This document shows positions 1,608 to 24,925 of a stretch of DNA of 64,000 nt, piece by piece. The position numbers and the translations under genes were made by a program. The DNA is from Candidatus Zymogenus saltonus. Lineage in GTDB: Bacteria; Desulfobacterota; Zymogenia; Zymogenales; Zymogenaceae. A model generated the notes under the pieces. It saw nothing but the letters and a program-made list of their open reading frames with translations. It was not told where the DNA came from and ran no database searches. The stretch spans positions 1 through 64,000 of the forward strand of contig JAFGIX010000054.1 in the NCBI GenBank assembly GCA_016929395.1. Reading direction: 5' to 3'. Every line of letters starts with the position of its first letter. The first letter of the stretch is position 1.

Positions 1608-1662
1608 GGAGACGTATTAAGAATTTTGATTTTCTAATTTTTACAGTGAGGATAATATTAAA

Positions 1663-3396
1663 ATGGACTTTCGAAGATTTTTTCTAAAAATATCCCTGTC
1701 CGTTCTTTTTATCTTCCTCTCGGCATCTCTCGTGTTTGGACAGGATTTAATCCACAAGAACGGCAAGGCCGAAGTCTATCTGCTCCCCGACAAGGTCGAG
1801 CATCGGGTAAAGGTGAAAAAGCTCATCGCAAGTGCGGTGATCCACGAAGAAATCAAACATGCCGATGTATTTTTAGAGCTATTTCTTGAAAATGACGGTA
1901 AAGTGGATTTCGTTGAGGTCAAATTTTTTGGCAATGAGTATACGGAAGAACAGAAAAAGGCGTGGAAAGAGCACATCCAGACAATGCCTGCATCATTTCA
2001 TCACGTTGAGCTGGCGGAAGTTTTCACCATCCCCAACACGAGGATGGCGAAGGTATTGGGAGGCCACTACAAATATTCTGTAACCATCATCAACAATCAA
2101 AAGGCCGCCGGGGAAGTAGTCACATTTCTGACCTTTATACCATCTGAGCTCATAGATATTGTCACAAGCCTTACGATGCCCGAGCTTGGTATCGAAAGCA
2201 TCGTTATTTCCGAAGGCAATTTCAGCCATGTAATTCCGCTGGGGAAAAAGCTCACAGAGATACCCGCCGTTCCAACGGAGGTCGACCTTAAAAACATAGG
2301 CATACCCGCCAAACCCACGATTACAGTAACGATAGATAAAAGCGGGAAAAACGAGATAGCGATGGGAGAGAAAATATCGCCGGAAATTGTCTATTCACCG
2401 GCCTCCTCCGATCTGACCGGAAAATCGCTTGTCATGGAGATTGTAAAAATCGAGATATTGCAAGATTATGCCAATGAGTTCACGCCTGGGTATACTCTAA
2501 AAAAAGGTCACATAAGCTACTCCAGAAGAAAGACCATCGAAGAAATTACCCTCTTAGACGCAACCGAGCTGAAAAAGCTAAATCTAAAACCGGACGATAT
2601 TATCAAAATAGTGCCGACAAAGGAATTCGTATTCAACAGCCCGAGAAAGCATGAGATCATTGTAAAAGTAGATAAGGCGGAAGCCAAAACGGATTTTATG
2701 GTGAAAGCACCGGAGGGACCAAGCCCTTCCATTACGATGTCTCTGCCGCCCACGACGGAGGAAAAGCCGCCCACCGTTGCCGAGAAGCCGAAAGGCCCGG
2801 ATATATCGTCTATATTGACCGAGTCTAAAGACACACAAAAAGACACGAATCTCCCGTCGATTCTCAAAAAGACGGATACGGAATCCGGGGTGCCAATTAC
2901 CGCGGGACCGGTGGGACTCTCCTATACAGTCCTTTTGATGGATGTCAGCGCCAGCATGGGAAGCAAGAGCAAGATATACCAGGCCATAGATATTGCCACG
3001 GACTACGTCAACAAGGCGGGGCCGAAGGACAGGATCGCGTTGATGAAGTTCAACAACAGCTCCAGGCTCCTTCACGATTTCAATGAAAAGAGAGGTATCA
3101 TAATTAGTTCCTTACATCGTTTAAAACCCGGCGGCGGCACGGCCTTGCGAGACGCTCTTTTGGATGCCATGAATGTTCTAGACAATGCGCCGGGGGGAAG
3201 AAGGATCGTCTACGTCATAACCGATGGTATTGACACGGCAAGCACCGCGACGATAGATCAACTCAAGTTCAAGGCAACCACTCTCGGTGTGGAGATAGAA
3301 ACCGTTCCCGTGGGATCGGACGCAAAACTGGATGTGCTGAAATCAATCTCGGGGATATCGGGAGGCTCAAAGACTAAAATATTGGAAAAAAGGTAG
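1663..3396 (+). CDS. Exported VWA-domain protein with a large unknown N-terminal part
   Basis: The 577-residue product has a signal peptide (about 1-26), roughly 390 residues I do not recognise, and a C-terminal von Willebrand factor A domain (about 420-577). The metal-binding MIDAS pieces are visible: DVSAS, the Thr in GGGTAL and the Asp in VITDG. VWA domains bind protein partners through a divalent metal. A Pro/Lys-rich linker (about 355-400) precedes the VWA domain. There is no C-terminal membrane segment, so the protein is probably periplasmic or outer-membrane associated. It sits 37 bp before a membrane Ser/Thr kinase. A second VWA protein lies at 11896 before the second set of modular proteins. 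Confidence 0.8.
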   Translation: MDFRRFFLKISLSVLFIFLSASLVFGQDLIHKNGKAEVYLLPDKVEHRVKVKKLIASAVIHEEIKHADVFLELFLENDGKVDFVEVKFFGNEYTEEQKKAWKEHIQTMPASFHHVELAEVFTIPNTRMAKVLGGHYKYSVTIINNQKAAGEVVTFLTFIPSELIDIVTSLTMPELGIESIVISEGNFSHVIPLGKKLTEIPAVPTEVDLKNIGIPAKPTITVTIDKSGKNEIAMGEKISPEIVYSPASSDLTGKSLVMEIVKIEILQDYANEFTPGYTLKKGHISYSRRKTIEEITLLDATELKKLNLKPDDIIKIVPTKEFVFNSPRKHEIIVKVDKAEAKTDFMVKAPEGPSPSITMSLPPTTEEKPPTVAEKPKGPDISSILTESKDTQKDTNLPSILKKTDTESGVPITAGPVGLSYTVLLMDVSASMGSKSKIYQAIDIATDYVNKAGPKDRIALMKFNNSSRLLHDFNEKRGIIISSLHRLKPGGGTALRDALLDAMNVLDNAPGGRRIVYVITDGIDTASTATIDQLKFKATTLGVEIETVPVGSDAKLDVLKSISGISGGSKTKILEKR

Positions 3397-3433
3397 AATA
3401 TTTAAATATGTATAATGGAAAAAGGAGTTAATC

Positions 3434-4897
3434 GTGAAATCAAGGTTTTCCTATTATGGCTTGGCGCTATTAATGTTTCTGTCATTTTCGAGTCAGATTT
3501 TCGCCAATGAGCTAAAGATTATACCAAAGAGCGGTTCGGGGCTTTTTCAGAGGGATCTAACCGGTATAAAAGTGACCCTCGACGGGGCAAGTGTATACAG
3601 TGGTATTTTGGATGATGAAGGATTGGTGAAAAGTTCAACCGGGAAATCAATTAATATTAAGCCGGGCGATTATACCCTCTCATTTACACTGGATGGATAT
3701 AAGCCCGCGAAGTTTGAAGTTATAATTCCCAAGACGCCGGAAGGATTGCCGATTCTGACAGTAAGCAGGGAGATATCTCTGATAAAACTGCCTCCACCAC
3801 CTGTCGAGGAGAGAGGTCCCGCACCAAGATTTAAATCCTTTATGGAAGACGAAGAATTCTGGGGATATGTGATGGTTATACTTCTCCTGTTGATTGCGGT
3901 GCTTGTTATCGTATTGTTGTTTATACTGATGCGAAGGAGATCATTATACATGGGAGGTGCGGCAGCTGCCAAGGATAAACCAAAGCTAAAGGCTTCAAAG
4001 ACAAAATCCAAAGCACCGCCGGCTGAATATGATGACGGGCCTATTGCTTCCAAAGAGCAGCGGTTTACGGGCAAGCGTTTCGGGAAATATCTGGTAACAA
4101 AGACTATAGCCAGGGGCGGTATGGCCTATGTTTTGGAGGCGGAGTTTGAAAAAGGTGGGGGCACTCAGAAGGCCGCCCTCAAGATACCTTACGAGAATTA
4201 TCAGGAAGATAAGGAGTTTGTCAATCGTTTCAACCAGGAGGCCGAACTGGGAGATATCCTGTTTCATGAGAATATCATTCAGTTGTATGAATATGGGAAG
4301 GCCGAAACGGGGACGAAGTTTATCGCTATGGAATACGTTGACGGGACTGACCTTAGAAAGCTCATCGAAAAGGAGGGCATATTGGAGCCTGAGCGATCCG
4401 CGAAGATAGTCATGGACGTTGCGAAGGCGCTTGATTATGCCCACAGCCAGAACCCGCCGGTGTACCACCGCGATATCAAACCCGAGAATGTCATGTTTAA
4501 AGACAAAAAAGGTCAAAGTCCCGCAATATTGACCGATTTCGGAATCGCCACGCAGGGGGGCACCATGGGAACCGGAAAGGCGTTGATCGGCACCGCCCTC
4601 TATTCATGCCCCGATGCCGCAAAGGGCCATCCCGTTTCACCGGGGTATGATATCTACTCGCTGGGCGTGGTTTTCTACGAGCTGTTGACCGGCGAGGTGC
4701 CGTTCAGCGGGCCTGATTTCTATACCATTATGCGGCGGCATGAGGAAGTGGAACCGAAGCCTCCGAGAGAGATAAATCCTGACGTGCCGGAAGAGCTTGA
4801 AGAGATAGTATTGAAGATGATGGAGAAGGACCCGAAGAAGAGATACAAAAAGGTAAAGGAGTTGTTGGTAACGCTGCGAGATTACCTCAACAGGTAA
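3434..4897 (+). CDS. Membrane Ser/Thr protein kinase with N-terminal extracytoplasmic domain
   Basis: The 487-residue product begins at a GTG with AAAGGAG upstream. It has a signal peptide (about 1-25), a PEGA/carboxypeptidase-regulatory-like beta domain (about 25-118: KVTLDG, PGDYTLSFTLDGYKPAKFEV), one transmembrane helix (about 142-165), a basic linker, and a C-terminal Hanks-type kinase (about 215-487). Seen in the kinase are the glycine loop IARGGMAYV, the ALK lysine, HRDIKPENV (catalytic Asp347) and DFG. The predicted topology is sensor outside, kinase inside, the reverse domain order of PknB-type kinases. The PP2C phosphatase at 8452 is its likely counterpart. Confidence 0.88.
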   Translation: MKSRFSYYGLALLMFLSFSSQIFANELKIIPKSGSGLFQRDLTGIKVTLDGASVYSGILDDEGLVKSSTGKSINIKPGDYTLSFTLDGYKPAKFEVIIPKTPEGLPILTVSREISLIKLPPPPVEERGPAPRFKSFMEDEEFWGYVMVILLLLIAVLVIVLLFILMRRRSLYMGGAAAAKDKPKLKASKTKSKAPPAEYDDGPIASKEQRFTGKRFGKYLVTKTIARGGMAYVLEAEFEKGGGTQKAALKIPYENYQEDKEFVNRFNQEAELGDILFHENIIQLYEYGKAETGTKFIAMEYVDGTDLRKLIEKEGILEPERSAKIVMDVAKALDYAHSQNPPVYHRDIKPENVMFKDKKGQSPAILTDFGIATQGGTMGTGKALIGTALYSCPDAAKGHPVSPGYDIYSLGVVFYELLTGEVPFSGPDFYTIMRRHEEVEPKPPREINPDVPEELEEIVLKMMEKDPKKRYKKVKELLVTLRDYLNR

Positions 4898-4927
4898 CAA
4901 GAAATTTTACCATAGGAGGAAAGGGAA

Positions 4928-6250
4928 ATGAAAAAGGCTTTATTGTTTGTGATTCTTCTATTCGCGATGGCAGTTGTAATAATGCCTTTATATACTGAGG
5001 CAACTACAAAGACCATAAGCGGGACAATAACGGTCGTGGAGGGCGGAAACGGGAGCGTCGGGACGACGATAAGGATAAATATCGGCTCCAGTAAAAATAT
5101 CAAAGAAGGCGACCTGGGCTGGGTGAGCAAAGGTAGTGAGGTGATTGCGTATATTAAAATTATATCTGTGCACAGTAATTCGGCAATAGCTATTGTGACG
5201 ACCCATCAGCACGTAGTGAAGGTGACTGCTGGGCTGCCGGTGGGGTTTAAGGTGGATGTAACCGAAACGAAGCCGGAGCCGAAGCCGGAGCGAAAGCCGG
5301 TGAAGAAATATCCCGTACAACCGGAATTTGTCATCAAACCCCAGTTTGATGATGCCGGGTCTTTCAGCGAGGGCCTGGCTCCGATAAACATCGGCGGCAA
5401 GAGGGGTTACATAGGCAAGACCGGGAAATATGTCGTCAACCCGCAGTTTGATGATGCTGGGAGTTTCAACGAGGGCCTGGCTCAGGTGAAAATCGGTGAT
5501 AAGTATGGCTATATCGATAAGACCGGGAAGTATGTTATTAACCCTTATCAGTTTGATGATGCCTACTCATTCAGCGAGGGCCTGGCTTGGGTAGAAATCG
5601 GAGGGAAGAAGGGCTACATCGACAAGACAGGGAAACTAGTAATCAAACCCCAGTTTGATGGAGCCTATCCTTTCAACGAAGGCCTGGCTACTGCATGGAT
5701 CGGCGATAAGGAGGGCTACATAGACAGGACCGGGAGATATATTATCAAACCGCAGTTTAATTTTACCCGGCCTTTCAGCGAGGGTCTGGCTTTTGTTCGT
5801 ATCGGCGACAAGGGCGGTTGCATAGACAAGACCGGGAAATATGTTTTTACCACGCAGTCTCTTTATGTCGGGGTTTTCAGCGAGGGTCTGGCTACGGTGT
5901 TTAACGGCAGCAAGAGAGGTTACATAGACAAGACCGGAAAAATTGTGATAACCCCGCAGTTTGAAGGGGTTGGTAATTTCAGCGAGGGCTTGGCTCGGGT
6001 AGAAATCGGTGGCAAGTACGGCTATATCGACAAGACCGGGAAGATTATCGTCAACCCAAAGTTTGATGATGCTTTAGGTTTTAGAGAGGGCCTGGCTTTA
6101 GTGAAAATCGGTAGTAAGTGGGGTTACATCGACAAGACCGGGAAGTATATCATCACCCCGCAGTTTGAAAATGCCGGTAATTTCAGAGAGGGCCTGGCTC
6201 CTGTTAAAATCGGCGGCAAGTACGGCTATATAAAAAATCCGTTGAAATAA
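4928..6250 (+). CDS. Exported modular protein: shared N-terminal domain plus nine WG repeats
   Basis: The 440-residue product has a signal peptide (about 1-26), the shared N-terminal domain (to about residue 113, core KEGDLGWVSKG), a linker of PEPKPERKP type, and nine 34-residue WG (KWG) repeats of the form PQFDxAxxFxEGLAxVKIGxKxGYIDKTGK. WG repeats are known from Leptospira, Bacteroidetes and other bacteria; their ligand is mostly unknown. AGGAGG lies before the ATG. The linker and repeats closely match the gene at 13083, whereas the N-domain is closest to the gene at 6288, so the gene looks chimeric. One blade (near 5855) is degenerate. Confidence 0.85.
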   Translation: MKKALLFVILLFAMAVVIMPLYTEATTKTISGTITVVEGGNGSVGTTIRINIGSSKNIKEGDLGWVSKGSEVIAYIKIISVHSNSAIAIVTTHQHVVKVTAGLPVGFKVDVTETKPEPKPERKPVKKYPVQPEFVIKPQFDDAGSFSEGLAPINIGGKRGYIGKTGKYVVNPQFDDAGSFNEGLAQVKIGDKYGYIDKTGKYVINPYQFDDAYSFSEGLAWVEIGGKKGYIDKTGKLVIKPQFDGAYPFNEGLATAWIGDKEGYIDRTGRYIIKPQFNFTRPFSEGLAFVRIGDKGGCIDKTGKYVFTTQSLYVGVFSEGLATVFNGSKRGYIDKTGKIVITPQFEGVGNFSEGLARVEIGGKYGYIDKTGKIIVNPKFDDALGFREGLALVKIGSKWGYIDKTGKYIITPQFENAGNFREGLAPVKIGGKYGYIKNPLK

Positions 6251-6362
6251 TTTCAGATTTTTTGAATTACAAGAACAGGAGAAATATATGAAATCGATTA
6301 AGATATTTGTCCTTCTTGGCATTATTTCTATCTTGGTTCTATCTCCAATGTACGTTGCTTCA
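6222..6362 (+). repeat. Duplicated block, copy 1: end of WG gene, spacer and start of next gene
   Basis: The end of the WG gene (aaaaaatccgttgaaataa), the 37-bp spacer with gaattacaagaacaggag, and the first ~75 bases of the next gene recur almost unchanged at 14386-14526. The block spans a gene junction, so a two-gene unit was duplicated. Confidence 0.8.
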
Positions 6363-7016
6363 AAGACAAAGACCATAAGCGGAGCGATAACTTCGGTTGA
6401 GGCAGGGAATGGGAGCGTGGGAACGACTATAAAGATAAATATTGGTTCCAGCAAAAATATAAAAGAAGGCGACCTGGGCTGGGTGAGCAAAGGCAGTGAG
6501 GTAATTGCGTATATCAAGATAATATCGGTGCACAGTAATTCTGCAATAGCCATTGTCACAACCCACCAGCACGTGGTGAAGGTGACGTCTGGCCTGTCGG
6601 TGGGGTTTAAGGTGGAAGTAACTGAGACAAAGCCGAAAAGTGACAAGGAAAAATCTGAAGAGTGGTTTAAAAAAGGGAGAGAACAACATAAAAAGGAACA
6701 CTATGAGGAAGCTGTTCGATCTTTTACAGAGGCAATAAAAATAAACCCAAATTATGAAGAAGCATACAAAAATAGAGCTTATTCATACAGTAGAATGAAA
6801 AAGTATACTCAAGCAATATCTGACTTTAAGAGAGCTTTGGAAATTAATCCGAACAATGAATATTACTATTGGGTTTTAGCCGTAACATATAAAAACTACG
6901 AGGGAACGTGGCACGGAACAGCCAAGGACTACTTACGAATAGGTTGTGAGCATGGTGATAGTAATTGTTGTAGAAACTATCATTGGCATTTAGAAGATCC
7001 AGGAAGTTATGAATAA
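6288..7016 (+). CDS. Exported modular protein: shared N-terminal domain plus TPR repeats
   Basis: The 242-residue product has a signal peptide (about 1-25), the shared N-terminal domain (to about residue 112), then about two clear TPR units (WFKKGREQHKKEHYEEAVRS and AYKNRAYSYSRMKKYTQAIS) and a Cys/His-containing tail (GCEHGDSNCCRNYHWH). TPRs are protein-protein interaction scaffolds. The ATG has AGGAG upstream. Signal peptide and spacer are almost identical to those of the PDZ protein at 14453. Base composition drops sharply to AT-rich at the start of the TPR part (near 6650), suggesting a different origin for that module. Confidence 0.82.
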   Translation: MKSIKIFVLLGIISILVLSPMYVASKTKTISGAITSVEAGNGSVGTTIKINIGSSKNIKEGDLGWVSKGSEVIAYIKIISVHSNSAIAIVTTHQHVVKVTSGLSVGFKVEVTETKPKSDKEKSEEWFKKGREQHKKEHYEEAVRSFTEAIKINPNYEEAYKNRAYSYSRMKKYTQAISDFKRALEINPNNEYYYWVLAVTYKNYEGTWHGTAKDYLRIGCEHGDSNCCRNYHWHLEDPGSYE

Positions 7017-7033
7017 GCAAATAGGGGAAAAAG

Positions 7034-8428
7034 ATGAAACCAATAAAAGCATATATACTTTTTACTATTATAACCTTCTTGATTCTATCTCCAGTGTATG
7101 TAGCTTCCAAGACAAAGACCATAAGCGGAACGATCACGGCCGTGGAGGGTGGAAACGGGAGCGTGGGAACGACGATAACGATTAACCTCGGTTCCAACAA
7201 TAACCTGAAAAAAGGCGATTTAGGTTGGGTTTCAAAGGGTGATGAAAATATAGCTTATATCAAGATATTGTCTGTCGAAAATAATTCTGCAATAGCCATT
7301 GTCACGACCCATGAGCATGTGGCAAAGGTCACTTCGGGGCTGAGAATCAGCTTTAAAGTGGATGTAAAGGAGGAGATTATACCGGAAAAGAAAACTGTTT
7401 CAAAAATTAAAGAACCGACTTTTCTGTGGCGATTTGGCAGGTTTAATATTGCTAATGTACCAGAAACTGTAAAGCCTCTTTTTTCTAATGGGACTATCTA
7501 TTTTGGATCCTCTGAATTGTATGCCCTTAACTCAATGACGGGAAAACAATGTTGGAAATTTGACAAGGATGTGTTTGAAAGTAGCATTTTTCCTATAAAC
7601 TCACCAATGGTTTATAGTAATACACTTTATGTATGTAACTCGTTTTCAATATGCGCTTTCAATATTGACACAGGGTATCTTTTTTGGGCGAAGCAAACCG
7701 AACAAGTCTACGATGGCCCCCCCGTTTTTATTGATAATATGTTATTTTATAGCGTAATTCATCAGGGTATTATAGCAAGAGATGCCAGAAGCGGCAGTTT
7801 GCTTTGGAGATATAAGACTTATGAAAGTATCTATAATGCCCCGATTATTTTTGATAGTAAAGTATATGGCTGGGATCAAGAACAAGTATATTGTCTGAAT
7901 TCAAAAACAGGAAGTTTAATATGGAAAAAGAAGGTAAAACCGAGAACAGAAGAAGTAGTGAATTACAAAAATACACTTATCATTCCCTGTGTTGAAGGAC
8001 TTTTTTGTCTGGATAAAGATTCTGGAGAGATTGTAAAACAGCAACGATATCCTTCTAATTTTGGTTTTGGGGATTTTTTTAGAGCACATTCTGTTATTAA
8101 TGGGAGTAATGTGTTCTATAACATCGAGAGCAGTTTAATATCAATAAATCTTGATTCCGGAAGGGTCAATTGGGAAGCGAAGTTAGAAGGTTCTACAAGA
8201 TTTTCAGCTCCAGTGTTGTCGAAAGGCAGGGTATATATTGGAGATAATGATGGTTATGTGTATGCTTTGGACGCTTACTCGGGAAAAATATTATGGAGGT
8301 ATACAGAAGAAAATATTAAGGAAGTTTATGGATTATGTGTGGAAAATAGTATTCTATATTTCATTTGTGTTGAGGGATTAAAACACACATCGGTAGATGG
8401 TTGGCTTTATGCTATCAAAATTCAATAA
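7034..8428 (+). CDS. Exported modular protein: shared N-terminal domain plus diverged PQQ-type propeller
   Basis: The 464-residue product has a signal peptide (about 1-25), the shared N-terminal domain (about 26-112) and a C-terminal half of diverged PQQ-type blades (IYFGSSELYALNSMTGKQCW, IARDARSGSLLWRYKT, VYALDAYSGKILWRYTE). Its N-domain is the same subtype (NNNLKKGDLGW) as that of the propeller protein at 159, but the blades are far more diverged and AT-rich. It lies 17 bp after the TPR gene and 23 bp before the phosphatase gene, so co-transcription is likely. It is probably a periplasmic binding scaffold; no enzyme residues are evident. Confidence 0.82.
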   Translation: MKPIKAYILFTIITFLILSPVYVASKTKTISGTITAVEGGNGSVGTTITINLGSNNNLKKGDLGWVSKGDENIAYIKILSVENNSAIAIVTTHEHVAKVTSGLRISFKVDVKEEIIPEKKTVSKIKEPTFLWRFGRFNIANVPETVKPLFSNGTIYFGSSELYALNSMTGKQCWKFDKDVFESSIFPINSPMVYSNTLYVCNSFSICAFNIDTGYLFWAKQTEQVYDGPPVFIDNMLFYSVIHQGIIARDARSGSLLWRYKTYESIYNAPIIFDSKVYGWDQEQVYCLNSKTGSLIWKKKVKPRTEEVVNYKNTLIIPCVEGLFCLDKDSGEIVKQQRYPSNFGFGDFFRAHSVINGSNVFYNIESSLISINLDSGRVNWEAKLEGSTRFSAPVLSKGRVYIGDNDGYVYALDAYSGKILWRYTEENIKEVYGLCVENSILYFICVEGLKHTSVDGWLYAIKIQ

Positions 8429-8451
8429 CCTCAAAATACGAGACAGAATAA

Positions 8452-9456
8452 ATGAAAAATACTCATACCCTACCTATAACCTTTTCATGGAGAACCGATA
8501 CCGGCAAAGTCAGAGAAAACAATGAAGACAGCTTCCTGGCCTTAAGACAAGCCGGTAAAAATCCCCTGAACATACGCTCCGTCCTCATTGTTGCCGATGG
8601 CATGGGCGGACACGTTGGCGGAGATAGGGCCAGCAGTTCCGTGGTGAGATTCGTTGATGAAATTTTCAAACCGAAGAGCGTCAGCAAGCTCGACAAATTT
8701 ATCGGTAAAGAAGATAAGGCGATTGTATCGATAATAAAAGCTGCGGATAAAAGAGTTAGAGATCTTTCTGGAGGGGATACACACAAAGCCCCTGGCACTA
8801 CCTTTACCGGGGCGTTCATAATAGACAATAAGGCATTGATTGGTCACGTTGGGGACAGCCGCGCTTATCATATCAGAAACGACGAAATTGTTCAGGTTAC
8901 CGAGGATCACTCCTACGTGGCGAGCCTTGTGCGGGATGGAAAACTCACTCCTGAAGAGGCGAAGGATTTCCCTCATAAAAACGTAATCTTAAAGTCATTG
9001 GGATCGGGCGAATCTCTGAAAGTTGATCCGCCGAGAAAAATCAATCTCTTGGATGGAGACATTTTGCTACTCTGTTCCGATGGCCTTTGGGATCTCGTGT
9101 CGGATACCGAGATATTGTCGATTATCCACAAATCGAAAAGCATAAAGATAGCAAGTGACAGACTCATAAAGCTGGCAAATCATCGTGGTGGGCACGACAA
9201 TATCACGGTAGTCATGGCGGAATTCGGCCAATTAAAGAGAAACCCAAAATTATTCAGTGATTTAAAAGAGCTCCCACGCATTCAACCATTGAGCAATAAA
9301 AACTTCAGAAATCTTTTGAAAGGGATTTTGGTGCTTCTCTCAATCTTGCTTGTTTTTATTATATGGCAAATCGTAAAGGATTATAGGGGAATCGAAAAAA
9401 ATGTAATGCCTCGTGCGGGGCAATCGACATCAAAGCCATTGGGAGATATCCCTTAG
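8452..9456 (+). CDS. PP2C-family Ser/Thr phosphatase with C-terminal membrane anchor
   Basis: The 334-residue product has the PP2C (PPM) motif series in order: TGKVRENNED near the N-terminus, VADGMGGHVGG (about 47-57), GTTFTGAFI, HVGDSRAY, LLCSDGLWD and GGHDNITVV. These Asp residues bind the two catalytic metals. A single hydrophobic helix (about 286-306) near the C-terminus would anchor it with the catalytic domain in the cytoplasm. It should remove phosphate from Ser/Thr targets of the two kinases at 3434 and 9576, between which it lies. Known families pair such phosphatases with PknB-type kinases; the pairing here is from context. Confidence 0.9.
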   Translation: MKNTHTLPITFSWRTDTGKVRENNEDSFLALRQAGKNPLNIRSVLIVADGMGGHVGGDRASSSVVRFVDEIFKPKSVSKLDKFIGKEDKAIVSIIKAADKRVRDLSGGDTHKAPGTTFTGAFIIDNKALIGHVGDSRAYHIRNDEIVQVTEDHSYVASLVRDGKLTPEEAKDFPHKNVILKSLGSGESLKVDPPRKINLLDGDILLLCSDGLWDLVSDTEILSIIHKSKSIKIASDRLIKLANHRGGHDNITVVMAEFGQLKRNPKLFSDLKELPRIQPLSNKNFRNLLKGILVLLSILLVFIIWQIVKDYRGIEKNVMPRAGQSTSKPLGDIP

Positions 9457-9575
9457 AATTAGGACGATGTGGGGGGAACATAGAGAATATAAAAATACCA
9501 ATTCCGATAGTCCAAATTTGAATTAAGTAAATTGTGAACGAGTATCCATTTTTTTAATTGTCGGAGTAAAAGATC

Positions 9576-11747
9576 ATGCCTATTTGCGGTAATTGTGATT
9601 ACAAAAATCCAAAAGATGCTGAATTCTGTAAGAAATGCGGGGCGAGGTTAAAAGGAGACGAAGATCCTTTTGTTGGGACGATCATTGAAAAACGATACGA
9701 GGTGCTCGAGAAGATAGCTGAAGGTGGGATGGGAACGATCTACAAAGCTCATGACAAAAGGCTTGATATAACCGTTGCTCTGAAAATACTTCATCCGGAG
9801 CTCGCTCGCAACAAGAAATTTCTTTCCCGCTTTGAGAACGAGGCGAAGACCGTCGCAAAACTGAGACACGAAAATATTGTCTTGGTAAACGATACCGGCC
9901 CTGTCAGGGATACCTATTTCATCTCGATGGATTATGTTGATGGAGATGACCTCGTGGAGATCATCAATGACAGGGGGCTGTTGTCTATTGATGAGGCCTT
10001 CTCCATCGCCTCGCAGGTGGCCGAAGGGCTGGCCTATGCCCATTCCAAGGGAATCCTTCATAGAGATATCAAGCCTGCCAATATCATCATAGACAGGTCA
10101 GGAAAGGCGGTGATTACAGATTTTGGGATATCCAAAGCATTGGGTGAAAAGGGTCAGACAACTACCGGGACATCTATCGGCACACCGGAATATATGAGTT
10201 TAGAACAAATCAAGGGGAAGAAGCTCGATGGGAGGACGGATATCTATTCGTTGGGAGTTGTGCTTTATGAGATGCTGACTGGGAAATCTCCATTTCGCTC
10301 AGATACAGGAGTGTCCGCCATCGCCAAGATACTGAGTGAAGAAGCGGAGCCAATAGAGAGTCTGCGTCCCGATATTCCAGGCTGGGCTCTAGGGCTGCTC
10401 GAAAGGGTGATGGAAAAGGATCGGGAAAAGAGAATCGAGACAGCAGATGAATTTATTACTGTAATAAAGAAAGAATCTGAAAAAGAGACCAAAACCTCCG
10501 AACCAAAACCAAGAAAAGCTGATAAAAGCAAAGCTCCTACAGCCCCGGACCTAATTAAGAAGAAGAGGAAGGATAAAGTACAAGAATTGAAACTAAAGCT
10601 AAAAACCCAAAAGCATGCCTTCCCACGTAATAGAAAACTTGTTATTGCAGCGCTGTCAATTCTCATTGTTATTGGTATATCAATAGCCTTATTTCCCTTG
10701 GTGCATACATGTTCAAGTATGAAGAGTGTAGATGATTACGATGAATTAAAATCAGGCCTTTACAGAGTGATGATTAAAGATAAATGGGGTTATGCCGATG
10801 ATAAAAAGGTGATGGTAGGTGAAGGATTCTTCCATATAATTATTGAGCCTCGATTTGATGAAGCTGGTGATTTCATCGATGGTATTGCAGTGGTGAAGAT
10901 GGGAGATAAGTATGGCTATATAGATAGAAGGGGATATTTCATCGCAGATCCTCGTTTTGATAAAGCTGAAAATTTCAGCGAAGGATTAGCCGAAGTAATG
11001 ATCGGTGATAAATATGGCTACATTGATAAAACGGGAAAATATGTAGCTGAACCTAAGTTTGATTTTATTGGTGATTTCATCGACGGTATTGCAAGAGTCA
11101 AGATTAATAATAAATATGGCTATATTGATAAAACAGGAAAATGTATAGCTGAAACTAAGTTTGATTTTATTGGTGATTTCATCGACGGTATTGCAAAAGT
11201 CAAGATTAATGATAAGTATGGCTATATTGATAAAACAGGAAAATATATAGCTGAACCTAGGTTTGATTTTATTGGTGATTTCATCAATGGCATTGCACGA
11301 GTAAAGATCAATGATAAATATGGCTATATTGACAAAACATGGAAATATATCGTAATCCCACGATTTGATAAAGCAAGTGATTTCGAGGGTGGTAGGGCGA
11401 AAGTGGAATCAGGGGGGAAATGGTGGTATATAGACCAAACTGGAGAACTAATCAAGGGAGAATGCCATTCAACGGAATCATCTGCATTGGGGTATCTGTC
11501 AGGCCCCGGAGATTCATGCAAATTTAGGGTACCTGTGTCGCGGAAAGAGAACAAACAATCCCCAATTAGATTTACTTGTGAAAACAAATCAGAAGATTTT
11601 TGGATTAGATTTATACATTCCGGCGGCAAGGAAACGAAATATTCTTTGAAAAAGTATACATCATTCTCGGCATGGGATTCAAGTGGTTACGTAAATATAT
11701 TAATCTATTCAAATTCAGGTTCCGGAGATTGGAAATGCAATTGGTAA
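9576..11747 (+). CDS. Ser/Thr protein kinase with N-terminal zinc ribbon and extracytoplasmic WG repeats
   Basis: The 723-residue product starts with a short zinc ribbon (CGNC...CKKCG, residues 4-22), then a Hanks kinase (about 38-300: IAEGGMGTIYKA, ALKIL, HRDIKPANI with Asp164, DFGISKA), a Lys/Pro-rich linker, a transmembrane helix (about 355-376), about seven WG repeats (398-628) and a unique tail (628-723) with four Cys. Kinase and zinc ribbon should be cytoplasmic and the WG repeats outside, where the WG proteins encoded at 4928 and 13083 are exported. The kinase may sense the same ligand or bind those proteins; that is inference. The 119-bp spacer upstream may hold a promoter, but I see no convincing boxes. 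Confidence 0.88.
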   Translation: MPICGNCDYKNPKDAEFCKKCGARLKGDEDPFVGTIIEKRYEVLEKIAEGGMGTIYKAHDKRLDITVALKILHPELARNKKFLSRFENEAKTVAKLRHENIVLVNDTGPVRDTYFISMDYVDGDDLVEIINDRGLLSIDEAFSIASQVAEGLAYAHSKGILHRDIKPANIIIDRSGKAVITDFGISKALGEKGQTTTGTSIGTPEYMSLEQIKGKKLDGRTDIYSLGVVLYEMLTGKSPFRSDTGVSAIAKILSEEAEPIESLRPDIPGWALGLLERVMEKDREKRIETADEFITVIKKESEKETKTSEPKPRKADKSKAPTAPDLIKKKRKDKVQELKLKLKTQKHAFPRNRKLVIAALSILIVIGISIALFPLVHTCSSMKSVDDYDELKSGLYRVMIKDKWGYADDKKVMVGEGFFHIIIEPRFDEAGDFIDGIAVVKMGDKYGYIDRRGYFIADPRFDKAENFSEGLAEVMIGDKYGYIDKTGKYVAEPKFDFIGDFIDGIARVKINNKYGYIDKTGKCIAETKFDFIGDFIDGIAKVKINDKYGYIDKTGKYIAEPRFDFIGDFINGIARVKINDKYGYIDKTWKYIVIPRFDKASDFEGGRAKVESGGKWWYIDQTGELIKGECHSTESSALGYLSGPGDSCKFRVPVSRKENKQSPIRFTCENKSEDFWIRFIHSGGKETKYSLKKYTSFSAWDSSGYVNILIYSNSGSGDWKCNW
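11046..11351 (+). repeat. Three near-identical 102-bp units inside the kinase WG region
   Basis: Units begin at 11046, 11148 and 11250 (gctgaacctaag-type starts) with exact 102-bp spacing and few differences, while flanking WG repeats of the same gene are diverged. This marks recent tandem duplication within the sensor part of the kinase. Confidence 0.85.
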
Positions 11748-11895
11748 TAACGTTAATGGAATACAAAATGCCCATAAAAATGTTTCATTGCAAAGAGTTT
11801 TTCTTATTGTTTATACCTATTCCAAAGTTTAATTGAATTTTTCTAATTCAGTTATCGAGTACTGATAGATAATCTCAATAATAGGAGAATAAAAT

Positions 11896-13032
11896 ATGAA
11901 AGAGAAATATAATCGCAAAGCCATTTTCCCCTTGTTTGGAACTTTAACAATTTTTTTTGTTCTCTCGATCTTACCGTGCCTTTCGGCCGAAAAAACTTCT
12001 AATCCATCTTCGAAATCACCTTCATCAAATATTGGCGTTGTGACCTTATCCCAGCTCAACCTCAAAGACTATCCCACCATCACTGCTTACCTCTCGATTA
12101 CCGATCCCGATGACAGGCCGATTAACCTCATTGATATAAAAGACCTCACGGTTACCGAAGAGGAGAAACCCGTAGGAGACCTCAAGATAATCGAGGCCGA
12201 TCCTGTGACTGACCCACTTTCGGTGGTTCTGGCTATCGATATCTCCGGGAGTATGGCGGGCAAACCACTGGAAAAGGCAAAGAACGCCGCAGAGGCCTTC
12301 GTAAATCTACTTGAGGTGGGGGACAAAGCCGCCATCGTCACATTTGATCAGGATGTTTATCAAGATATGCCCCTCACGGATGATAAAACTGCATTGGTCA
12401 ATACAATCCGTGGCCTCAAATACAAGGGAGATACCGCATTGTATCAGGCAATCATCGATTCGGCCGATGTATTAAAGGATGCACCCGATGGAAGGCGAAT
12501 CGTGATTATCCTGACCGATGGGAGAAACGATAAGGCCAACAGCACCTCCACCAAGGAAGATTCGGTCAGTGCGGCGGGTGTGGGCAGGGCAGTTGTCATT
12601 ACCGTGGGTCTGGGAAACGAGATAAACGCCGATGTGCTAAAATATATTGCCGAGGAGACGGGCGGGAGATTTTTCTTTGCCCCGAAGCCGGAAGACCTAA
12701 AGGAGATATATGAGCTTATCTCCGACCAGATACACGCCCAGTACCGCCTATCTTTTACATCCCCCTTTCCCGAGCGCCCCGATCGGGTTGTCCTTTTTCA
12801 CACCATCGATGTGGGCCTTCGTTACGGTGGCGAGAAGATCAGTGGAACAAGAGAATTTTTGGCCTCCACCAACCCCCCACCCAATACCGGGATACTTCTC
12901 GATTATCAGAAGAAAAATGTGGCGGAATCTGAATGGCAGGCTATCTTATACACGTTGATTGCTATCGCCTTTGTGTTGCTGGTGGTGATATTGTTGGTTT
13001 TGATACTAAAGGCGGTGAAGGCAAGGAAGTAG
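11896..13032 (+). CDS. Membrane-anchored VWA-domain protein
   Basis: The 378-residue product has a signal peptide (about 1-30), a short beta region (about 45-105), a VWA domain (about 109-275) with MIDAS residues DISGS, the Thr in GDTALY and LTDGRND, a beta-rich segment (275-340), and a C-terminal transmembrane helix (about 349-371) with a KAVKARK basic end. It should therefore face the periplasm and be held in the inner membrane. GGAG lies upstream of the ATG. Its relation to the VWA protein at 1663 is limited to the VWA fold. It may hold envelope partners for the kinases; no T6SS genes are near, so a PpkA-type role is unsupported. Confidence 0.82.
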   Translation: MKEKYNRKAIFPLFGTLTIFFVLSILPCLSAEKTSNPSSKSPSSNIGVVTLSQLNLKDYPTITAYLSITDPDDRPINLIDIKDLTVTEEEKPVGDLKIIEADPVTDPLSVVLAIDISGSMAGKPLEKAKNAAEAFVNLLEVGDKAAIVTFDQDVYQDMPLTDDKTALVNTIRGLKYKGDTALYQAIIDSADVLKDAPDGRRIVIILTDGRNDKANSTSTKEDSVSAAGVGRAVVITVGLGNEINADVLKYIAEETGGRFFFAPKPEDLKEIYELISDQIHAQYRLSFTSPFPERPDRVVLFHTIDVGLRYGGEKISGTREFLASTNPPPNTGILLDYQKKNVAESEWQAILYTLIAIAFVLLVVILLVLILKAVKARK

Positions 13033-13082
13033 GAGTTTTTCCTAAGAGACAATTTCATACCAAAAAATTGGAGGTGCTTTCC

Positions 13083-14414
13083 ATGAAAGGAAAAAAATAT
13101 TCATATGTACTGGTCTCTTTGCTGGTTTTTGCTTTCTTGATATCGCTTTCCACATTTTTGATGGCAAAGACGGAGACAAAGAGCGGGACAATTATTTCTG
13201 TAATAAGCGGGGATGGTAGCAAGGGAACGGTTATAAAGATAGACCTTGGGTACAGTGATAAGCTCAAAGAGAAGCAGCTGGGCTGGGTCACAAAAGACGG
13301 CGACGCGATTGCGTATATTGAGATCGTATCTCTCGAAAGCCATAAGGCCGTTGCTCTTGTAACGACCCACGAGAACGTTGAGAAAGTAACAACTGGGTTG
13401 TTGGTAAGCTTCAAGGTGGAAGTGTCCGAGACAAAGCCGGAGCCGAGGCCGGAGCGAAAACCGGTGAAGAAATATCCCGTACAACCGGAATTTGTCATCA
13501 CCCCGCAGTTTGATGATGCTGGGAGTTTCAACGAGGGCCTGGCTCAGGTGAAAATCGGTGATAAGTATGGCTACATCGATAAGACCGGGAAGATAGTAAT
13601 CAACCCGCAGTTTGATGGTGTCTGGGATTTCAGCGAGGGCCTGGCTAGTGTGAAAATCGGTGGTAAGTGGGGCTATATAGATAAGACAGGAAAGTATATC
13701 GTCAACCCGCAATTTGATTATGCCGATGTTTTCAGTGAGGGGCTGGCTTTGGTGAAAATCGGCGGCAAGTGGGGCTATATAGATAAGACCGGGAAATACG
13801 TCATCAAACCTCAGTTTGATCGTGCCAACCCTTTCAGCGAGGGACTGGCTCGTGTGGAAATCGGCGGCAAGTACGGCTTCATAGACAAGACCGGGAAGAC
13901 AATCATCAACCCACAGTTTGACCAAATCTATGATTTCAAAGAGGGCATGGCTAATATGAAAATAAGAGGTCTAAAGTCAGGCTTTATCGACAAGACCGGG
14001 AAATATGTAATCAGCCCTCAGTTTAATTCTGTTCGTTTTTTCAGCGAGGGGCTGGCGATGGTCGTTGTCGAAGGGAAGCGGGGCTTCATAGACAAGAGCG
14101 GGAAGATAGTCATCAACCTGCAGTTTGATGATGCAGATTGTTACAGCGAGGGCCTGGCTTGTGTGAAAATCGGCGGCAAGTGGGGCTATATAGATAAGAC
14201 CGGAAAAATTGTCATCACCCCGCAGTTTGATAGATCCGGGTCTTTCAGAGAGGGGCTAGCTATAGTGAGAATCGGTGAAAAAAGAGTCTACATCGACAAG
14301 ACCGGAAAGTATATTATCAATTTGCAGTTTGATGGTTACGGGCATTTCAGCGAAGGACTGGCTCAGGTGAAAATCGGTGATAAATGGGGCTACATAAAAA
14401 ATCCGCTGAAATAA
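13083..14414 (+). CDS. Exported modular protein: diverged shared N-terminal domain plus WG repeats
   Basis: I start this at the ATG at 13083, preceded by GGAGG; an open frame extends upstream to 12933 but that overlaps the VWA gene and lacks a signal peptide at its start. The 443-residue product has a signal peptide (about 1-27), the most diverged copy of the shared domain (core KEKQLGWVTKDG), the linker KPVKKYPVQPEFVI shared with the protein at 4928, and nine WG repeats. A stretch near 13505-13590 is almost identical in DNA to 5440-5530, pointing to recent exchange between the two WG genes. Probably periplasmic; ligand unknown. Confidence 0.85.
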   Translation: MKGKKYSYVLVSLLVFAFLISLSTFLMAKTETKSGTIISVISGDGSKGTVIKIDLGYSDKLKEKQLGWVTKDGDAIAYIEIVSLESHKAVALVTTHENVEKVTTGLLVSFKVEVSETKPEPRPERKPVKKYPVQPEFVITPQFDDAGSFNEGLAQVKIGDKYGYIDKTGKIVINPQFDGVWDFSEGLASVKIGGKWGYIDKTGKYIVNPQFDYADVFSEGLALVKIGGKWGYIDKTGKYVIKPQFDRANPFSEGLARVEIGGKYGFIDKTGKTIINPQFDQIYDFKEGMANMKIRGLKSGFIDKTGKYVISPQFNSVRFFSEGLAMVVVEGKRGFIDKSGKIVINLQFDDADCYSEGLACVKIGGKWGYIDKTGKIVITPQFDRSGSFREGLAIVRIGEKRVYIDKTGKYIINLQFDGYGHFSEGLAQVKIGDKWGYIKNPLK

Positions 14415-14526
14415 TTGCAACCCTTTTTGAATTACAAGAACAGGAGATATATATGAAATCGATGAGGATATTTGCCCTTCTTGGCATTATTTCTATCTTG
14501 GTTCTATCCCCAGTGTACGTTGCCTC
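14386..14526 (+). repeat. Duplicated block, copy 2: end of WG gene, spacer and start of next gene
   Basis: This is the second copy of the junction described at 6222-6362. It includes the last codons of the WG gene, the spacer with gaattacaagaacaggag, and the signal-peptide codons of the following gene. Confidence 0.8.
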
Positions 14527-15754
14527 CAAGACGAAGACCGTCAGCGGAATAATCACCTCGGTTGAGGCCGGGTCTGGAAGCGTGGGAACGACGATTAAGA
14601 TAAACATCGGCTCCAATAAGAAAATTAAAGAAGGCGACCTGGGATGGGTGACAAAGGGTGATGAAGCTATAGCTTATATCAAGATCATTTCAATTCATGG
14701 CAATTCGGCTGTTGCAGTTGTGACCGTTCATCAACATATTGAGAAGATAACATCAGGATTGTCGGTCCATTTTAAAGTTGATATCCACGATCCAAAGCCG
14801 AAACCTAAACCTGATACAAAAGCTGAACTCATTACTAAACTTGGTTTCACAGTGGAGAATGTAACAGACAGTATAGCAAAATATCTGGGGCTTCCAGATA
14901 CTAATGGTGTTATCATAACTCATGTAAAGAGTGGAAGTATTGGTTCAAGATTAGGATTAAAGAAAGGTTTTATTATACAAAAGTTAAATGATAGCAAAAT
15001 AAGAAACACAGCTGATCTTAAACAAGCAATAAAAAAGGTTGAAAAAACTGGTAACTATAGATTCTCAATATGGCATGACGGGCATTCTGTCACTTTTGTT
15101 TATAATGACCTAGAAAAAGTAAAAAAGGATTTAGATGATGAAGGTTATATAGGAGTTGTTGTTCAAAAGATAAATACAGAAATAGCAATGTCGTTAAAAA
15201 TGGAGAATCCAAGAGGTGTGTTAATAAGCGGAATTGAACCTGGGAGTCCTGCGGATAATGTAGATTTAATAGAATGTGATGTGATAATTAAATACAATGA
15301 CATAGAAGTAAACGAGCCTTCAGATCTTGTAAGACTTGCATCGAACTCAAAAATTGGAGAAAGAGTTTATATAACAATAATAAGACATGGAAAAGAAAAA
15401 GTTGTTTCCTTAAAAATGGCGAATAGAAAATGGTATCTTGGTTCATCTAAAAGTAAAAAAGGTTTTCTTGGAGTGGATTGTAAAGTGATTTATTCTGATC
15501 CTTTTGGTCCTTTTACTAAATCTGGTTCAATTAGGTTTGAAATCACAGGGATATTTCCTGGGAGTCCTGCAGATAATGTAAACCTTCAGAGAGGTGATAT
15601 TATTTATAAATTCAATAATAAAAAGATTGAAAGCAGTGATGATTTCAAAACATTGGTTGCTAATACAAAAGTTGGCGAGGGAGTGGTGGTCAATATTTTA
15701 AGAGAGGGTAAAAAGGTAGACATATACGTGAAGATCGGGAGAAAACCTGAATAG
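14453..15754 (+). CDS. Exported modular protein: shared N-terminal domain plus three PDZ domains
   Basis: The start is set at the ATG at 14453 (AGGAG upstream) because it gives the family signal peptide; the frame itself is open from 14384. The 433-residue product has a signal peptide, the shared N-terminal domain (core KEGDLGWVTKG), and three PDZ-like domains (about 133-215, 240-320 and 340-430), two with ExxSPADNV followed by GDIIYKFN-type strands. No protease domain is present, unlike HtrA/DegP or Tsp. PDZ domains bind C-terminal peptides, so it may present or tether envelope proteins. The PDZ part is distinctly AT-richer than the N-domain. It is the last gene of the run. Confidence 0.83.
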   Translation: MKSMRIFALLGIISILVLSPVYVASKTKTVSGIITSVEAGSGSVGTTIKINIGSNKKIKEGDLGWVTKGDEAIAYIKIISIHGNSAVAVVTVHQHIEKITSGLSVHFKVDIHDPKPKPKPDTKAELITKLGFTVENVTDSIAKYLGLPDTNGVIITHVKSGSIGSRLGLKKGFIIQKLNDSKIRNTADLKQAIKKVEKTGNYRFSIWHDGHSVTFVYNDLEKVKKDLDDEGYIGVVVQKINTEIAMSLKMENPRGVLISGIEPGSPADNVDLIECDVIIKYNDIEVNEPSDLVRLASNSKIGERVYITIIRHGKEKVVSLKMANRKWYLGSSKSKKGFLGVDCKVIYSDPFGPFTKSGSIRFEITGIFPGSPADNVNLQRGDIIYKFNNKKIESSDDFKTLVANTKVGEGVVVNILREGKKVDIYVKIGRKPE

Positions 15755-16336: not shown

Positions 16337-19297
16337 TTATTCTCTTGCAGCTTCCCCTATCATCCCCTCAAAAAGTTTCCTCTTCAACATCGCATTGACC
16401 TTCGGGTCGTTCATCTTCTTATAGAGGTCAATCTTGGTGTTCACAAATTCTAGAAGCAAATCATCGAACACCTTGTCAAACTTGTATTTCTTGTTCTCTT
16501 TGGTATTGTTTCCGCTCAAAACCGCTTGAAGCCCCTCATCTCCATTGAGTTTCTCTTGAATGCGTTCTAGGTCAACTTTATCCTCATCGGTTAGATCGAC
16601 TCCATAGGTTTCGTTGAGAGTTTTAATTATTAAAGATAGGAGGTCTTTTTCACCTTTCTCATGCTTTACCTTTCCGTTACTCCATGTTACTACTCCATCC
16701 TTTTCTTCAGGTTTCGGACTTCCATTGAATGTCTTCTGTATTCTAAAGGAGTCTAAATCAACCGCATCCCGAATCTCGTCTGGGTAAATCGGCTTTCTCT
16801 TCGGCAGTTTCCTGTTGAGGTTTTTCCCGAATACGTATAATTTCTCCCATTCGATGTTCTGGAAGATGATAATTTGTGAGATAAATCCATACAGGCGGAC
16901 AAACCTCTGCAGGATTGACCGGAAGTCCTCCCGCTCTTCTTCAGTTCGCTCTCTCCATACTTCCACCACCCTATCAAGAATCGGTTGCATCCTTTCGGGT
17001 GGCTCCTTTGGATTGAAGAATATCTTGGCAAATTCCTCAATATGTTCTTTGGTGAATATCCCGAATTGCTCCAACTCATCTTCAAGGTTGTGGAGCTTAT
17101 TGGGATCGATTTCTTCCTCAAGGAAAGTCGTCTGGTAATAGGGTTGGAACGCATCCCGAATCTCTTCCGCCTCGTTCACGAAGTCAAGGATGAAGGTCTC
17201 AGACTTACCCCTCAACGTCCGGTTGAGCCTGCTCAACGTCTGCACCGCCTGAAGCCCACTCAACTTCTTGTCTACATACATGGTGTGGAGTAAAGGCTCA
17301 TCAAATCCGGTCTGGAACTTCTCGGCGACAATCAGTATTCGGTATTCGGGTGTCTTATAAGCATCCTGAATTGCCACCCTCGGTGGAAGCCTGTTAAGGC
17401 TCGTCTCGGTGTATTCTTCCGGTGAGTCGGGGTCTTTAACGGTTCCAGAAAAGGCTACCAGCGGTTTGTAGGGAAGGTTCATTTCCTCCATTACTTTCTT
17501 GAACATCAAGAAGTATTTTACCGCATGGAGCCTTGACCGAGTCACCACCATAGCCCTTCCGCGACCCTGAATGGCTCTTTCGGTTTTTTCAAGGAAGTGA
17601 TCCAACATTATCCGAGTCTTGGTCTCAAAAGTATGAGGTTGCAAGTCTACATAGGAGACTAAAAGACGTTTTGCCTTCTTTGTCTCATACTCTTTGTCGG
17701 TTTCCACCGTCTTCACCAGCTTGAAATACCTTTTATATGTCGTGTAGTTCTCAAGAATATTGAGTATAAATACCTCTTCAATCGCCTGCCTCATGGAATA
17801 GATATGGGTTGCCACGAAACTGCCGTCTTCGAGTTTTTGCCCGAAAAGCTCAAGCGTTTTATTCTTTGGGGTTGCGGTAAAGGCAAAGAAAGAAATATGT
17901 GGCTGTTTACCCCTTGCTCGAATTTCTTCGATAATATTATTAATCTCGTCTTCAGGGTCAAAGTCATCCCTGTCCTCTTCTTCCGCCTGTTCGAGGTTAA
18001 CGGAAAGAGTCTTCTTCAGGTGCTTCGCCGACTCTCCCGACTGGCTCGAATGAGCCTCGTCGAGGATCACGGCGAACTTATGACCAGCTAGTTTATCCGT
18101 ACTTTCTGAAATGACTGGAAATTTCTGGAGCGTGGTGATGATGATGTCCTTGCCTAATCCAAGGGCGTCCCTCAACTGAGCGGAGTTTATGTCTATCGGA
18201 TTGACTACCCCTGTCGTTTGCTCAAACTGCTTGATGGTGTTCTGGAGCTGCCTGTCGAGAATCTTCCGGTCGGTAACAACGATGATTGAATCGAACATCC
18301 TTTCCTTGTCCGTTTCTTTCCTATAGAAACTAGCAAGCTTGTGGGCGAGCCATGCAATAGAGTTTGATTTACCCGACCCCGCCGAGTGCTGAATCAGATA
18401 GTTATGGCCAACACCCTGCTGTCGGACGGCAGTCAGAAGCGTCCTGACGGCATCCAACTGGTGATATCTCGGAAAGATAAGGGTTTCGTATTCCTTCTCA
18501 AATAATCCCTTTTGCTTATCAAACTTCTTCTCGGTTATCTTCTGAATGTGGAGGTAGCTCTTCAATAGCTCAAGCAGCGTATCCGGCTGGAGTATGTCTT
18601 CCCACAGGTAGGCCGTCTTGTGGCCGTTGGGATTGACCGGATTTTCAGTTCCCTTGTTGAAGGGCAGAAACCTTGTGCCGTCTCCCTGCAACCGTGTGGT
18701 CATGAAGACCTTTTCGTTGCCAACGGCAAAGTGTACCAGGCACCGCTTAAACTGGAGCAAGGGTTCCTTCGGATCACGGTCTGTCTTGTACTGTTTAATG
18801 GCGTTTTCAACGAATTGGGCGGTGAGCGAGTTCTTCAGTTCCGCCGTGATGATGGGGATGCCGTTGAGGAATATAACGACATCAATCGTCTTCTCGTTTC
18901 TCTTGCTATAGGCAAGCTGTCTGACGATTGAGAACCTGTTCTGTTCATAGAGCCTCCGATGCTCCGGATTCATCCCGCTCGACGGCTTGAAGTATGCCAT
19001 GCGGAAGCTCGCTCCCCTGTCCTTGAAACCCTTACGCAATACTGCAAGCGTTCCCCTGCTCGTGATTTCGTCAGAAAGACGCCTGCAGAGTTTTGCGGGA
19101 GTGTCCGCCCCGTACTGCCTTTCGAGCTTCTCGTATTCCTTTGGCTGGGTGGATTTAACGAAGTCCAGCACCTCATCGGTAATGAGACACAACGATCTGT
19201 CGTATTCTTCGGACAGCCGTTTGAGGTATCCGGTGGAGAGGAGGTGTTCTTCGATATGCTCTTCAAAGTCCTTCTCAAGATATGATTGCGGTGTCAT
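16337..19297 (-). CDS. hsdR: Type I restriction enzyme, R (motor and nuclease) subunit
   Basis: The 986-residue product translocates DNA with ATP and cuts unmodified DNA in complex with HsdM and HsdS. The N-terminal nuclease core (DVVIFLNGIPIITAELKN) carries the Asp and ExK residues of the PD-(D/E)xK fold. The helicase part has Walker A AGSGKS, ILDEAHSSQSG (DEAH box), FTATPK and later motifs ending in QTLSRLNR. The length is normal for HsdR. The ATG has AAGGA upstream and lies 12 bp after the zinc-ribbon gene. It appears intact, so restriction could be active. Confidence 0.95.
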   Translation of the reverse strand: MTPQSYLEKDFEEHIEEHLLSTGYLKRLSEEYDRSLCLITDEVLDFVKSTQPKEYEKLERQYGADTPAKLCRRLSDEITSRGTLAVLRKGFKDRGASFRMAYFKPSSGMNPEHRRLYEQNRFSIVRQLAYSKRNEKTIDVVIFLNGIPIITAELKNSLTAQFVENAIKQYKTDRDPKEPLLQFKRCLVHFAVGNEKVFMTTRLQGDGTRFLPFNKGTENPVNPNGHKTAYLWEDILQPDTLLELLKSYLHIQKITEKKFDKQKGLFEKEYETLIFPRYHQLDAVRTLLTAVRQQGVGHNYLIQHSAGSGKSNSIAWLAHKLASFYRKETDKERMFDSIIVVTDRKILDRQLQNTIKQFEQTTGVVNPIDINSAQLRDALGLGKDIIITTLQKFPVISESTDKLAGHKFAVILDEAHSSQSGESAKHLKKTLSVNLEQAEEEDRDDFDPEDEINNIIEEIRARGKQPHISFFAFTATPKNKTLELFGQKLEDGSFVATHIYSMRQAIEEVFILNILENYTTYKRYFKLVKTVETDKEYETKKAKRLLVSYVDLQPHTFETKTRIMLDHFLEKTERAIQGRGRAMVVTRSRLHAVKYFLMFKKVMEEMNLPYKPLVAFSGTVKDPDSPEEYTETSLNRLPPRVAIQDAYKTPEYRILIVAEKFQTGFDEPLLHTMYVDKKLSGLQAVQTLSRLNRTLRGKSETFILDFVNEAEEIRDAFQPYYQTTFLEEEIDPNKLHNLEDELEQFGIFTKEHIEEFAKIFFNPKEPPERMQPILDRVVEVWRERTEEEREDFRSILQRFVRLYGFISQIIIFQNIEWEKLYVFGKNLNRKLPKRKPIYPDEIRDAVDLDSFRIQKTFNGSPKPEEKDGVVTWSNGKVKHEKGEKDLLSLIIKTLNETYGVDLTDEDKVDLERIQEKLNGDEGLQAVLSGNNTKENKKYKFDKVFDDLLLEFVNTKIDLYKKMNDPKVNAMLKRKLFEGMIGEAARE

Positions 19298-19309
19298 CAG
19301 TATTCCTTA

Positions 19310-19672
19310 TTAATCCCAACAGCCGATAGAAATAAATTCCATAGTCATCTTTCCGCACTTCGGGCAGAGGTACATAGTGTCAGGTAATTCAAAGAAATTG
19401 TCATCCTCAAGACGCCAGTCAAATATAACATTGTCTTCTTCTGATGAATCAATGGGAGCATGAACAGAAGGGTCGTCATAGAATATTACCGGCCTTTTGC
19501 AGTATGAGCACTTTGGGTTATCCTTTAGGTAGTTCTTGACGAACAGCTTCCTGCATTTAAGGCATATTGCCGGAGCGCCACAGTACTCTGTAAAATTCAA
19601 CATCCCGCCGCCTGCAAAGATTTCTTCGCTTTCAAAGCCGCATTCACATTTTGCTTGAAATACTGTTCCCAT
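19310..19672 (-). CDS. Small zinc-ribbon protein inside the type I RM operon
   Basis: The 120-residue product carries several Cys pairs (CECG, CLKC, CSYC, CPKCGKM), suggesting two or three small zinc ribbons, with an acidic middle part. I do not recognise a family. It sits between hsdS (1-bp gap) and hsdR (12-bp gap) and is surely co-transcribed with them. An accessory role such as DNA or protein binding for the restriction complex, or an anti-phage partner, is inferred from position only. It is not one of the standard Hsd subunits. Confidence 0.75.
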   Translation of the reverse strand: MGTVFQAKCECGFESEEIFAGGGMLNFTEYCGAPAICLKCRKLFVKNYLKDNPKCSYCKRPVIFYDDPSVHAPIDSSEEDNVIFDWRLEDDNFFELPDTMYLCPKCGKMTMEFISIGCWD

Positions 19673-19673
19673 A

Positions 19674-24802: not shown

Positions 24803-24925
24803 TTCGGTTCGTTCTGAAAAATCATTATTGAGAGAAATGGGTAATAATCAATGATACGGGAATTGATTTCAAGTCATCTTTAGATACGAATGGAAAAGTA
24901 ATATAAAATATTTTTGGAATATGTA

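Follow-up and report, generated by a model that had tools for sequence, protein, structure and literature searches.

The window analyzed here is a stretch of 64,000 nucleotides from Candidatus Zymogenus saltonus that begins at the start of its contig (JAFGIX010000054.1, C54). Near this end lie 11 genes, extending from 159 to 15754, all on the + strand and separated by gaps of 17-148 bases:

159-1607, + strand: predicted exported protein, N-terminal module (N-module) and PQQ (Pfam, N-module comparison)
1663-3396, + strand: vWA protein with a signal-like N terminus
3434-4897, + strand: second membrane kinase, kinase domain C-terminal (Pfam)
4928-6250, + strand: predicted exported protein, N-module and nine WG units (Pfam, repeat HMM)
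6288-7016, + strand: predicted exported protein, N-module and TPR (Pfam)
7034-8428, + strand: predicted exported protein, N-module and PQQ (Pfam)
8452-9456, + strand: PP2C phosphatase with a C-terminal membrane helix (Pfam, NCBIfam)
9576-11747, + strand: Ser/Thr kinase of 723 residues with predicted exoplasmic WG repeats (open reading frame, Pfam)
11896-13032, + strand: vWA protein with a signal-like N terminus and a C-terminal helix (Pfam); ortholog in genome G003, 60.5%
13083-14414, + strand: predicted exported protein, N-module and nine WG units (Pfam, repeat HMM, structure model)
14453-15754, + strand: predicted exported protein, N-module and three PDZ domains (Pfam)

Promoter matches in the cluster were near the level of shuffled sequence, and terminator matches were below it, so that neither was informative. 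Contig C86 ends in another WG protein with an N-module, and no overlap was found between that contig and the start of the window. Just downstream of the cluster are genes resembling those of a type I restriction-modification system and of a serine recombinase (16337-22696, - strand; 24914-26425, + strand).

The N-module, of ~90 residues, is common to the six predicted exported proteins encoded at 159, 4928, 6288, 7034, 13083, and 14453. It follows a signal peptide and is joined to quite different C-terminal repeats, an arrangement also present at L035:8524-9873. The genes that encode it are local duplicates with up to 85% DNA identity. Among 148 genomes of the phylum, it was found in seven copies in the source genome (six of them in the cluster) and in one copy, with PQQ, in G002, and in no others. 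The module was assigned to no Pfam family, with only a weak lead to FlgT_C (E = 0.055) in one of the seven, and no convincing solved relative was found.

The kinase encoded at 9576-11747 is composed of the following segments:

9585-9650, + strand: zinc ribbon, residues 4-25 (Zn_Ribbon_1, E = 1.5e-5)
9696-10442, + strand: kinase domain, residues 41-289 (Pkinase, E = 9.2e-55; VALK, HRD, and DFG motifs)
10629-10721, + strand: membrane helix region, residues ~352-382 (hydropathy; the sole membrane-like segment)
10749-11453, + strand: WG array, comprising a degenerate unit (residues 392-409) and six units (residues 427-626) (Pfam, repeat HMM)
11454-11744, + strand: C-terminal tail, residues 627-723 (~97 residues), without a Pfam match

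A complete Hanks-type kinase domain, with the catalytic motifs VALK67, HRD162, and DFG182 in place, is followed by one membrane helix, and the basic stretch preceding this helix suggests a cytoplasmic kinase domain, with the WG array on the outer side of the cytoplasmic membrane. No vWA domain was found by Pfam in the kinase itself, this domain being carried by separate proteins. The zinc ribbon, which scores 25.1 bits against a Pfam cut-off of 25, had been described as an unusual addition; it is present, but the N-terminal CxxC...CxxC motif before the kinase domain is common to related kinases of the family and is therefore not unusual. The tail has a weak likeness to a C-terminal domain that is triplicated in a zinc-ribbon kinase homologue of G003:C19 (L060:7965-10193). 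This homologue has HGA in place of HRD and is likely to be a pseudokinase.

The Pfam family WG_beta_rep (PF14903) matches the kinase in six stretches with 211 bits against a cut-off of 25.6 (E = 1.4e-63). An HMM of the unit, built on the repeats of the source genome itself, places the units at residues 427-461, 461-495, 495-529, 529-563, 563-597, and 597-626 and the degenerate unit at 392-409; the units are 34 residues long, and units 3-5 are nearly identical. The same repeat family is present in the proteins at 4928 and 13083, for which Pfam reports eight and nine stretches, respectively, and the repeat HMM nine units each; both proteins have signal-peptide-like N termini and are predicted to be exported. 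The original prediction that the kinase carries WG repeats beyond its membrane helix and shares them with these soluble neighbors is thus borne out by Pfam, the repeat HMM, and hydropathy.

The original prediction went on to propose that the proteins either compete for one ligand or associate through their WG arrays. In the form considered here, the exported WG proteins would be direct partners that set kinase activity by binding the kinase array or by competing for its ligand. Consistent with such a partnership, the repeats are of one family within one same-strand cluster, the arrays of the kinase and of the exported proteins are all predicted to be outside the cytoplasm, and their co-location beats chance, because the probability of another WG region within 8 kb is ~3% (seven other regions, 3.76 Mb). 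In contrast, no special pairing of the arrays was found. The arrays at 4928 and 13083 are among the best blastp matches of the kinase array (48-49%), but all WG arrays have close similarity to these two. With an additive correction for array typicality, the kinase array shows no clear excess of similarity to 4928 (z = 1.2) or 13083 (z = 0.5); the value for 4928 and 13083 compared with each other is z = 3.7. The numbers of units are also unlike, seven (one of them degenerate) in the kinase versus nine in each exported protein.

The shared repeats could instead be a by-product of local duplication and domain shuffling in a WG-rich genome, with no functional link between the proteins. The abundance of the repeats (99 in 13 proteins, distributed over eight regions of the source genome), the local duplication of the N-module genes, and the 74% DNA identity of the two exported WG arrays over their full length are in keeping with this explanation. 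However, the kinase array shows no particular closeness to its local counterparts, and the z values given above do not support a recent donation of repeats from the neighbors to the kinase. The compact same-strand cluster, which also includes the phosphatase and vWA genes, suggests a common use, and we regard an origin as a by-product as unlikely.

The number of units peaks at nine, in 20 of the 37 WG proteins counted (loci L031-L037 and L062-L109), which suggests that the WG array is constrained and of fixed size, perhaps closed rather than open-ended. The model of the 13083 protein (pLDDT 91.7) has regularly repeating strands, and its best solved matches include BamB and Ika8, a computationally designed eight-bladed propeller, with TM scores of ~0.44-0.49 by target length. 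In the model of the kinase exodomain, pLDDT is mostly >90 over the WG units and weaker after them, and the TM scores by query (~0.2-0.3) are low for every match listed. A closed ring of four-stranded blades, as in a beta-propeller, was not seen directly in either model, and a search by sequence for solved WG structures gave none that was convincing.

The combination of a kinase domain with WG repeats was rare in the genomes surveyed. No other WG protein of the source genome was seen with a kinase domain. WG repeats were above threshold in 25 of 297 genomes of the phylum, and a search of these 25 with the whole kinase found a kinase domain and WG repeats in one frame only in the 9576-11747 protein; the wide occurrence of WG repeats in Ser/Thr kinases without WG neighbors, which the original prediction had named as the observation that would speak against it, was not seen there. 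A wider draw of 395 genomes, with at most two candidates scored per genome, gave no such combination among the matches listed, and a scan of the genome collection with the whole kinase gave a single match, from a Lokiarchaeota assembly, that was confined to the WG part. Fusions of this kind nevertheless exist outside the phylum, as a plasmid of Pseudanabaena galeata encodes a kinase (WP_342593582.1) with an N-terminal Cys motif, a kinase domain, and C-terminal WG repeats. Its gene stands alone, with no annotated WG, PP2C, or vWA neighbor, which argues against the partnership considered above. No relevant paper was found on WG repeats together with kinases, and KWG is absent from the text of two kinase surveys (PMC1262709, PMC2176072). 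At L037:4550-9742 (G000:C22), a 1378-residue, apparently cytoplasmic protein has C-terminal WG repeats, and the WG protein encoded after it shows no obvious signal peptide.

In a tree of kinase domains, the 9576-11747 kinase is the sister of G002:C62 (L051; support 98/96), and G003:C20 (L054) is in the next group out (81/84). The alignments with both relatives stop at residues 379-380, the end of the helix, and beyond it both carry PQQ where the 9576-11747 kinase has WG. The PP2C is also shared (52% in G002 and 49% in G003) and is encoded near the kinases of these relatives, the ortholog in G002 lying beside the sister kinase; the vWA protein is shared with G003. Because this kinase/PP2C/vWA core is common to relatives that have PQQ at the same point, the exodomain would appear to be an exchangeable sensor, taken from among the repeat domains that the family also exports, the direction of the exchange between WG and PQQ being judged from just four genomes of the family.

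Kinases with SH3b domains in G000 and G003 sit in clusters with PP2C genes (L056:4879-10682 and L053:7894-14228). The G000 cluster (L056) includes an exported PQQ protein and a YkuD L,D-transpeptidase with a LytR_C domain, and the transpeptidase points to signaling at the cell envelope or cell wall. Exported SH3b, PQQ, TPR, and WG proteins occur together in G002, where no kinase was seen on the stretches read. WG, PQQ, and SH3b are found both in exported proteins and in kinases, so that the same modules serve both roles. The PQQ and SH3b kinases are not consistently located beside exported proteins bearing the same module, and neither G002:C62 nor G003:C20 has an exported PQQ neighbor in the stretches read. 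This weighs further against control of the kinase by its exported WG neighbors, which, on balance, we consider rather unlikely. A more specific version, in which the nine-unit exported proteins are putative soluble co-receptors or decoys for the seven-unit kinase and repeat-to-repeat contact outside the cytoplasm would control phosphorylation inside, is distinctly improbable.

Alternatively, the kinase system of the cluster could act against phages or in stress responses instead of sensing the envelope. The PADLOC kinase models PD-T4-6 and mad6 match, and restriction-modification-like genes adjoin the cluster. However, these models match the generic kinase domain, in both kinases of the cluster alike; the PADLOC match to the PP2C is weak, and the vWA, WG, and PDZ proteins have none. 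Identification as a defense system was rejected on these grounds, and we attach very little probability to it.

The interpretation that we favor, and hold to be reasonably probable, is that the 9576-11747 protein is an envelope-sensing transmembrane kinase similar to PrkC and PknB, with WG repeats as its exoplasmic sensor and the PP2C as its antagonist. Most likely, the WG domain would bind a ligand or some component of the envelope and thereby change the clustering or the activity of the kinase, and the adjacent membrane PP2C (8452-9456) would reverse the phosphorylation. The exported WG, PQQ, TPR, and PDZ neighbors are probably envelope partners or co-regulated products of the locus; for the WG proteins, co-location is what points to a partner role. 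WG repeats are widespread, and no function for them was found in the literature searched; the WG kinase and its PQQ sister offer a direct route to asking what the WG domain senses, and they show that, in one small bacterial family, sensors are exchanged while the kinase/phosphatase core is conserved.

Bacterial Ser/Thr kinases joined to PQQ, SH3b, WD40, TPR, and PASTA are known (PMC1262709, PMC2176072, PMC2877116). The PASTA kinases PrkC, PknB, and Stk1 have the same arrangement of a cytoplasmic kinase, one helix, and C-terminal exoplasmic repeats, with an adjacent PP2C, in their case of the Stp1 type, but their repeats are PASTA rather than WG, and the 9576-11747 kinase has an additional N-terminal zinc ribbon. 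Its best NCBIfam model is that of the PASTA kinases (NF033483), which covers only residues 34-373 and scores 339.4 bits against a cut-off of 450, and Pfam finds no PASTA match in it; the best model for the 8452-9456 PP2C is Stp1 (NF033484), with 227.8 bits, below the cut-off of 230. In the PpkA-type kinase of type VI secretion, the vWA domain is on the kinase itself, which is not so here. The Pseudanabaena kinase has a similar order of domains but no apparent membrane helix, whereas the 9576-11747 kinase is membrane-spanning and encoded in a cluster. G002:C62 and G003:C20 resemble it in kinase domain, helix position, and nearby PP2C, and G003 also in the vWA protein, but differ in their PQQ exodomains. 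What is new here is the WG exodomain on a membrane kinase, exchanged for PQQ in its sister.
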